A DNA stretch of 64,000 nucleotides from Oscillospiraceae bacterium (lineage in GTDB: Bacteria; Bacillota; Clostridia; Oscillospirales; Ruminococcaceae), in contig JAAVID010000015.1 of assembly GCA_014799395.1 (NCBI GenBank), positions 25,202-89,201 on the forward strand, in the 5' to 3' direction. Made by a program: the position numbers and the translations under genes. Below, piece by piece: positions 21,637-62,064 of this stretch. The notes beneath the pieces are model-generated. The model was not told the DNA's origin. It made no database searches and worked only from the letters and a program-made list of their open reading frames with translations. Numbering within the stretch: the first letter of the stretch is position 1; each line of letters starts with the position of its first letter.

Positions 21637-21661
21637 AAGCCGCGTATTATCACGGCTTTTT
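21637..21661 (-). terminator. Terminator downstream of tag
   Basis: AAAAAGCCG...CGGCTTTTT around ATAATACG. Confidence 0.45.
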
Positions 21662-22237
21662 GTGCAATTTTCTATTATCCGAGTGACAAAAGCAGGAAAC
21701 GACATGGTCGTCCACCATTCCCACCGCCTGCATAAACGAGTAGATTATCGTCGTGCCGACAAATTTAAAGCCGCGCTTTTTCAAGTCCCTGCTTATCTTA
21801 TCGGAGAGCGGAGTGCTCGCGGGAACGTCGGCGAGGGTTTTCGGACGGTTGACTATCGGAGTATCGCTGACGTAGCCCCAGATGAACTTGTCAAAGCTGC
21901 CGAATTCGCGCTGAATTTCCAGAAACGCCTTGGCGTTGGCGACGGCGGCGTTTATTTTCAGCCTGTTGCGGATTATCCCCGCGTCGTTGAGAAGCTCGGC
22001 GATTTTTTTATCATCGTATTCCGCGACCTTTTCGGGGTCGAAGTTGTCGAACGCGCGGCGGAAGTTCTCGCGCTTTCGGAGTATAGTTATCCACGACAAG
22101 CCCGCCTGCATACCCTCAAGTATCAGCATCTCGAACAGCTTGCGGTCGTCGTGCTCGGGGCGACCCCATTCGTTGTCGTGGTATGCGACGTAGACGGGGT
22201 CAGTGCCCGCCCATTCGCAGCGGCAAAGAGTTTTCAT
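21650..22237 (-). CDS. tag: DNA-3-methyladenine glycosylase I
   Basis: MKTLCRCEWAGTDPVYVAYHDNEWGRPEHDDRKLFEMLILEGMQAGLSWITILRKRENFRRAFDNFDPEKVA; ATG at 22237 with RBS GGAGG. Confidence 0.92.
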   Translation of the reverse strand: MKTLCRCEWAGTDPVYVAYHDNEWGRPEHDDRKLFEMLILEGMQAGLSWITILRKRENFRRAFDNFDPEKVAEYDDKKIAELLNDAGIIRNRLKINAAVANAKAFLEIQREFGSFDKFIWGYVSDTPIVNRPKTLADVPASTPLSDKISRDLKKRGFKFVGTTIIYSFMQAVGMVDDHVVSCFCHSDNRKLHKKP

Positions 22238-22303
22238 AATATCCTCCTTCAATATATAAATTATAATTTTGCTTAAAGACTTGCAGCTAAAAAAAACGGG
22301 ATT

Positions 22304-22570
22304 CCTAAGGGGCTTGCCCCTTAGGCGGAATGCAAGGGCAGAGCCCTTGCGCAGGTCAGGGCGGCAGCCCTGAATACCGCGCGTAAGCGCGGTGGCTGTG
22401 CGAAGCACAGCCGAGGGGCGAAGCCCCGCACCGCCGCGAAGCGGCGGCTCTCCCAAAAGCGCTAAAAGGGTTTGGGGAAAAACAAGAGTTTTTCCCCAAA
22501 TCAAGAAATTTGCCAACAGGCAAATTTCTTGATCAATCGGTTTTTTCTGCCGGTGGCAGAAAAAACCGAT
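22304..22570. repeat. Cluster of ten consecutive non-homologous hairpins
   Basis: Stems at 22304-22325, 22332-22350, 22356-22373, 22376-22393, 22394-22412, 22415-22427, 22431-22447, 22471-22500, 22501-22532 and 22536-22570, each a perfect inverted repeat with a 2-4 nt loop. Confidence 0.9.
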
Positions 22571-22644
22571 CCGCGCTTTGAACAGTACCGCGCTGCCGCA
22601 GCAGCCTAATAATTTGTTCGGTTCGCATTACACTAAATTATAAT

Positions 22645-23220
22645 TTACTTATACATAATCTTATCCGAATTCAACTTATCATTAAACCCGACCCAATACC
22701 CCAACTGCGTAAACACGGGAATAAGCGCGTAATACCCCATCATCAGCACGGGGAACATCACGCTCATCGCCTCGACGCGGCTTGCCTGCGAGACGAGCGC
22801 GTCCGCTTGCGGAGTAAACGCCAGCACCAACGGATACGCGCTGCCCGAAATAAACTGATATATCAGCAGATTATCCCGCTCGGGGAAAAAGAGCTTGTTT
22901 ATCAGCAGAAAAGCCGTCGGTGCTGCCGCGAACGCGAACATTATCAGCCCTATCGCTATCCAGCGGAATTTCGTCACGCCGTCCACGCGCTTCAGCTTCA
23001 CCAGACTTCGCTCCTTAACGCCGTTTTTCCACGCCGCCGTAAACACCAGCGAAAAGAAAATGACTGCCGAAAACGCGATCGCCAGCACCTTTATAAGCAT
23101 ATTGTTCCCGAAAACAAATATCGCCATAGTCATTATCAGACAGAGAATATTTCCCAGAACAACAAAACCAACGCCTTTAAGCGTTAAAATGCCGAAGCTC
23201 TCTCTCTTCATAGCTTTCAC
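22645..23220 (-). CDS. Multi-pass membrane protein, unknown function
   Basis: 191 aa with several hydrophobic helices. Confidence 0.65.
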   Translation of the reverse strand: MKAMKRESFGILTLKGVGFVVLGNILCLIMTMAIFVFGNNMLIKVLAIAFSAVIFFSLVFTAAWKNGVKERSLVKLKRVDGVTKFRWIAIGLIMFAFAAAPTAFLLINKLFFPERDNLLIYQFISGSAYPLVLAFTPQADALVSQASRVEAMSVMFPVLMMGYYALIPVFTQLGYWVGFNDKLNSDKIMYK

Positions 23221-61731: not shown

Positions 61732-62064
61732 TGATTTTTCAACCTTTCTTCGTGATGTTTTAGCGGACGAGTAACTTTCCGCTTTCTTTAACCGCTCCTC
61801 CTTTGCGCAAGTTGGGGGAGCAGACAGCCGGCGAAGGCTTTCTGAAAAATCCACCGAGCCGTGTGTTTCATTTTCCCGAACGCACCTGTTAGTTATCCGA
61901 GTTCTCTCGGACACTTTAACGGCGCTCCCGGAACGAACCCAACGTCCCGTAAAACTTTTCGCCCGAATTCAATTCGGACATACTCCATCGAAATTACCGC
62001 GAACGCTCGCGCAACCTCCGACTTCATCGCCAAAGTGACCTGATTTAACAAGCCACCGCTAATT

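Follow-up and report, generated by a model that had tools for sequence, protein, structure and literature searches.

A string of perfect hairpins as the probable interior of a dispersed MITE-like element in an uncultured gut Clostridia genus

Bacterial MITEs are recognised as short sequences (less than ~600 bp) without coding capacity, which occur in multiple copies, carry terminal inverted repeats (TIRs) and are present or absent at a given site between relatives; a target-site duplication and an autonomous partner having the same TIRs are further marks. Hairpins are also the building material of the double-hairpin elements of fungal mitochondria, mobile units with variable stems that consist of two hairpins and are organellar. 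The REP/BIME and REPIN elements are dispersed, hairpin-forming extragenic palindromes linked to a Y1 TnpA-REP (PMC3116915, PMC8266576), and REPs measure 20–40 bp (PMC3733652). Finally, template switching, loop inversions included, has been described in RNA genes, namely microRNA and rRNA genes, in which full loop inversions were very rare (PMC8794818).

Here, we examined a hairpin string in a 64,000-nucleotide stretch of DNA from an Oscillospiraceae bacterium, hereafter called the window. A first-pass annotation had claimed ten inverted repeats at 22304–22570; every one was found there and all are perfect, so the string is real, but it is just the middle of a longer unit running from 22257 to 22647 (Table 1). 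With a stem of at least 7 bp and a loop of 2–4 bases, eight non-overlapping perfect hairpins were counted in these 267 bp; hairpin 6, with its 5-bp stem, falls outside this tally, and the greedy count is one short because hairpins 8 and 9 have one base in common. For the same length, 300 dinucleotide shuffles gave a mean of 0.1 hairpins and a maximum of 2, while the remaining 63.7 kb of the window holds 24 such hairpins. When the element was folded by itself (395 bases), the DNA fold was ~13 s.d. more stable than that of shuffles on either strand, and the RNA fold lay 12.6–15 s.d. beyond shuffles, again on either strand. Long-range helices closing the two hairpin groups appeared in the fold; judged by eye, they were not clearly kept in other copies and we set them aside.

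Table 1. Positions of the element, its parts and other features within the window
Feature	Position	Strand	Remarks
tag (DNA-3-methyladenine glycosylase I)	21650..22237	-	PF03352, E 2e-87; start 19 bp outside element
Whole MITE-like element	22257..22647	+	391 bp, TIR to TIR, TA at each end
Left terminal inverted repeat TAAATTATAATTT	22257..22269	+	equivalent TIR in G020 copies
Hairpin 1	22304..22325	+	10 bp stem, loop TT; T-A/A-T and C-G/T-A swaps among copies
Hairpin 2	22332..22350	+	8 bp stem, loop AGA; alleles differ by two paired changes
Hairpin 3	22356..22373	+	7 bp stem, loop GGCA
Hairpin 4	22376..22393	+	7 bp stem, loop GTAA
Hairpin 5	22394..22412	+	8 bp stem, loop GAA; elsewhere an allele with paired 2-bp extension
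Hairpin 6	22415..22427	+	5 bp stem, loop GAA
Hairpin 7	22431..22447	+	7 bp stem, loop GAA
Conserved unpaired core GCGCTAAAAGGG	22459..22470	+	sets element strand in the genus
Hairpin 8	22471..22500	+	13 bp stem, loop AAGA; most conserved hairpin genus-wide
Hairpin 9	22500..22533	+	15 bp stem, loop AACA; two-sided changes in 10 of 15 pairs, 14 copies
Hairpin 10	22536..22570	+	16 bp stem, loop GGT
Right terminal inverted repeat	22635..22647	-	last three bases are the neighbouring gene's stop codon
Other flanking gene, protein of unknown family	22645..23220	-	stop codon inside right TIR
S10-Clostridia ribosomal leader	61959..62035	-	Rfam RF03136, 42.7 bits

The unit is bounded by one and the same 13-mer, TAAATTATAATTT, at both ends, and its position upstream of tag, as first proposed, was confirmed by the identification of that gene with PF03352. 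In the relative G020, tag and its neighbour are present at 88–91% identity and only a short spacer without the element lies between them; this is also the arrangement in G024. The empty site in G020 is not base-exact, because the G020 spacer itself differs. It should be noted that most G020 copies begin and end with TA, which is inseparable from the TIR; this dinucleotide may belong to the TIR instead of marking a target-site duplication. Between the element and the tag start, 19 bp are left (22237–22257), compared with a tag upstream spacer of ~135 bp carrying a promoter-like TATAAT in G020; tag expression may therefore differ in the window species.

The string is not peculiar to one locus: it belongs to a TIR-bounded repeat that is dispersed through the genome, a point missing from the first-pass annotation. 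A 321-base query against the own genome (G000; 2.76 Mb, 112 contigs) matched the window copy and, at E values of up to 3.3e-18, ~45 other places with complete or partial copies, many of which lie at contig ends. Among the copies, hairpin slots keep a constant order and stems differ. Moreover, G020 contains 19 complete TIR-bounded elements of 291–399 bp with unrelated flanks; 16 are hairpin strings and three have other interiors. These elements start with TAAATCAGAATTTA or a near copy and end with its complement, and the 14-mer TIR gave 66 matches in G020 with at most one mismatch, against 1 for a reversed control. As in bacterial MITEs, the element is short, non-coding, present in dozens of dispersed and mostly intergenic copies, bounded by TIRs with TA ends, and accompanied by several types per TIR; in contrast to them, its interior is made of up to 11 independent perfect hairpins evolving arm-with-arm.

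Versions of the element particular to each genome occur in most of the sampled members of the genus; they have in common the core GCGCTAAA...GGG, a loop-AAGA hairpin and a string of otherwise different hairpins; GCGCTAAAAGGG is likewise common to versions whose other hairpins are unrelated. The core pattern was present in five of five sampled genomes of the genus, and none of 294 genomes representing the family's other genera had it. The suggestion that relatives carry hairpin strings was borne out within the genus. The named carriers are uncultured Clostridia/Oscillospiraceae assemblies. A single stray match outside, in Methanomicrobia, was taken for chance, and the element was not found in phages, plasmids or viral contigs. 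Loops are partly conserved slot by slot across the genus, and in some copies hairpin 8 has a longer loop, AAGGACACCAGTGCCAC.

Several rearranged or related repeats were also observed. At L034 and L028, a deletion fused segments of two different hairpins, and pairs of inverted arrays at most ~250 bp apart form large palindromic composites (L018, L019, L027, L084 and L085). Short palindromic repeats between ordinary genes (L017, L036, L041, L042 and L043) reuse hairpins 1 and 2, most of them adding a third hairpin, GTGAGGC-GGA-GCCTCAC; hairpin modules are common to several repeat families. Other hairpin strings occur elsewhere in the order (L267, L256 and families f20/f21), for example tandem repeats of [TCCGC-gNa-GCGGA]tacgttatgt, in which the loop is gaa, gca, gta or ata, and GCGAAGC hairpins separated by ATATCACT/ATATAACT. 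Differently designed arrays carrying cGNAg loops were glimpsed in other families of the order.

Two candidate mobilisers were rejected: Y1 transposase (PF01797) gave no match in G000, with control genomes positive, and IS630-type transposase (DDE_3) none in 8 genomes. No transposase was recognised among the ORFs at ten unpaired TIRs in G020, nor among those of an 868-bp TIR pair considered as an autonomous copy (G000:C3, L123, 715–1582). The latter and three G020 loci (L107, L109 and L106) carry the same terminal repeats around unrelated interiors and represent other MITE types, one of which contains ...GTGCAAGAGGACACCCTTCGGGAGAGG...; given that the same terminal repeats enclose unrelated interiors, one transposase probably serves several MITE families.

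We then considered how the stems change. Stem cells are paired in 99.5% of cases for hairpins 1–4 (25 copies) and in 99.2% for hairpins 8–10 (14 copies). Of 75 stem pairs, 25 changed on both sides and 1 on one side only, and stems vary at about the rate of unpaired spacers (0.107 vs 0.143 and 0.143 vs 0.050). Both the number of two-sided changed cells and the covariation score exceeded all 500 shuffles, and the covariation signal was lost when the partner was slid by 1–3 columns. In several pairs, T-A in some copies is A-T in others, or C-G is G-C, exchanges with no route through G-U; such paired, wobble-free stem states are abundant. At the insertion orthologous between G000 and G014, paired differences were seen in hairpins 1, 2, 4, 6 and 10, along with one unpaired T-G in hairpin 3. 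These paired changes bear out the idea that hairpin shape is kept and not sequence; stem decay without compensation, looked for among copies and relatives, was not encountered. The earlier wording that selection or a mechanism acts on shape stands in part: the shape is kept, but pairing need not mean selection, and the exact loop inversions described below point to a DNA-copying mechanism.

For the loops, we used 132 oriented arrays that had no core in the opposite direction close by, grouped the loops by the inner six stem bases, and retained those alleles that match the commonest loop at no position. Ten of 13 such alleles are exact reverse complements of a commoner allele found on that stem (e.g., AAGA to TCTT, AACA to TGTT and GAA to TTC), the stem being unchanged. 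Under random substitution, a reverse complement would arise with a chance of 1 in 9, 27 or 81; the binomial p values are 0.005 for 2-base, 1e-6 for 3-base and 2e-4 for 4-base loops. To invert a loop while both arms stay perfect takes a DNA event, one described as an outcome of template switching (PMC8794818). Since the same switching copies arm onto arm, the perfect stems are read as largely self-maintained; the inversions indicate DNA-level switching in about ten cases and do not prove that switching made the stem changes.

The loops also show strand polarity, with 76 GNA/GNNA loops on the core strand against 15 in the reverse orientation. Loops of the form cGNAg/cGNNAg are exceptionally stable in DNA, and they were considered as a mark of selection for DNA minihairpins. 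They were not used as proof, because the motif is almost as frequent in ordinary hairpins of these loci once it is scored in either orientation (26% vs 30%).

Overall, we consider it reasonably probable that the hairpins make up the inner part of a MITE-like, non-autonomous transposable element confined to one uncultured gut Clostridia genus, and that they are kept perfect mainly by template switching. The element largely fits a MITE by its anatomy, while it matches template-switch-maintained hairpins by its evolution. A transposase acting on the short TIRs would have spread the copies. During replication, the nascent strand would fold back or switch template at a palindrome and copy one arm from the other, so that a mutation in one arm would either disappear or be transferred to the other arm as well; were the switch to run completely round the hairpin, the loop would be left inverted. 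Recombination between dispersed copies would then reshuffle ready-made hairpin alleles, and such recombination confounds the reading of single events. Template switching would be the cause of the stem changes, and a folded RNA would not be needed, although the folding of RNA or of single-stranded DNA may be under weak selection.

Multi-base compensatory changes, loop inversion and maintained perfect stems are equally features of template-switch RNA hairpins (PMC8794818); here, in contrast, full inversions recur, in dispersed and probably mobile DNA. We found no description of such a hairpin-string family in the limited body of open-access literature searched. The fungal double-hairpin elements likewise are hairpin-built mobile units with variable stems, theirs differing by their two hairpins and organellar location.

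Could the compensation reflect RNA selection instead? The element would then be transcribed as a dispersed structured RNA, with selection acting on this multi-hairpin transcript or on an effect that it has in protection or termination. Strong compensation (25 of 75 pairs two-sided), the stable fold and the partial conservation of loops per slot in the genus agree with this. Moreover, mismatched hairpins near a perfect allele comprise 27 G-T, 13 A-C and 28 other mismatches, and this excess of G-T over A-C (~2:1) is a mild hint of folding selection and suggestive only. However, transversion-type mismatches are as frequent as G-T (28 vs 27), the two strands fold equally well, and the exact loop inversions are DNA events. 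Gene orientation, promoters and terminators, checked in the copies, gave no signal: copies have no preferred orientation to genes and contain no promoter or terminator match. A catalogued RNA was rejected, as Rfam gives nothing at the gathering threshold, in agreement with the first-pass annotation that no known ncRNA matches. We therefore regard a structured RNA as unlikely, while still giving it some weight. Somewhat more doubtful is a class of mobile elements selected for self-repairing DNA hairpins, which would act as single-stranded DNA or as cruciforms and have other versions elsewhere in the order.

Ordinary slow compensation could also have left old hairpin alleles that recombination now merely reshuffles, with no special copying. 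The few alleles per hairpin slot, recurring in varied combinations, would be expected in that case, as would L031, a chimera with its breakpoint inside hairpin 5. We nevertheless judge this improbable, as it leaves the loop inversions and the wobble-free swaps unexplained, and also the paired changes at the G000/G014 insertion unless all were converted.

An even poorer candidate is a single-stranded DNA element of REP/IS200-IS605 type whose hairpins are Y1 transposase substrates, despite the strand polarity of the arrays, their cGNAg/cGNNAg loops and an anatomy built on hairpins. The element ends are inverted repeats starting at TA, unlike those of IS200/IS605, and the own genome lacks Y1_Tnp in a search positive on controls. 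REP/BIME/REPIN elements are also dispersed extragenic hairpin-forming palindromes, but the present element is TIR-bounded and ~300–400 bp long, ten times longer, with no Y1 found in G000, and REP identity was rejected on these grounds. Chance, assembly artefact or ordinary terminators have a negligible probability despite a fragmented draft assembly with many contigs ending in copies, given eight hairpins against 0.1 expected, the same family in many independent assemblies and the absence of T-run terminators.

The MITE-like reading with template-switched hairpins bears on more than one locus. The element copies explain why contigs of these assemblies break so often. Moreover, it is common practice to regard compensatory changes as proving that an RNA structure is under selection; here, paired stem changes occur in dozens of copies per genome, alongside loop inversions that only a DNA process can make. 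If this reading is true, the element family would offer a natural system in which to study bacterial template-switch mutation, and would call for caution when RNAs are discovered by covariation.
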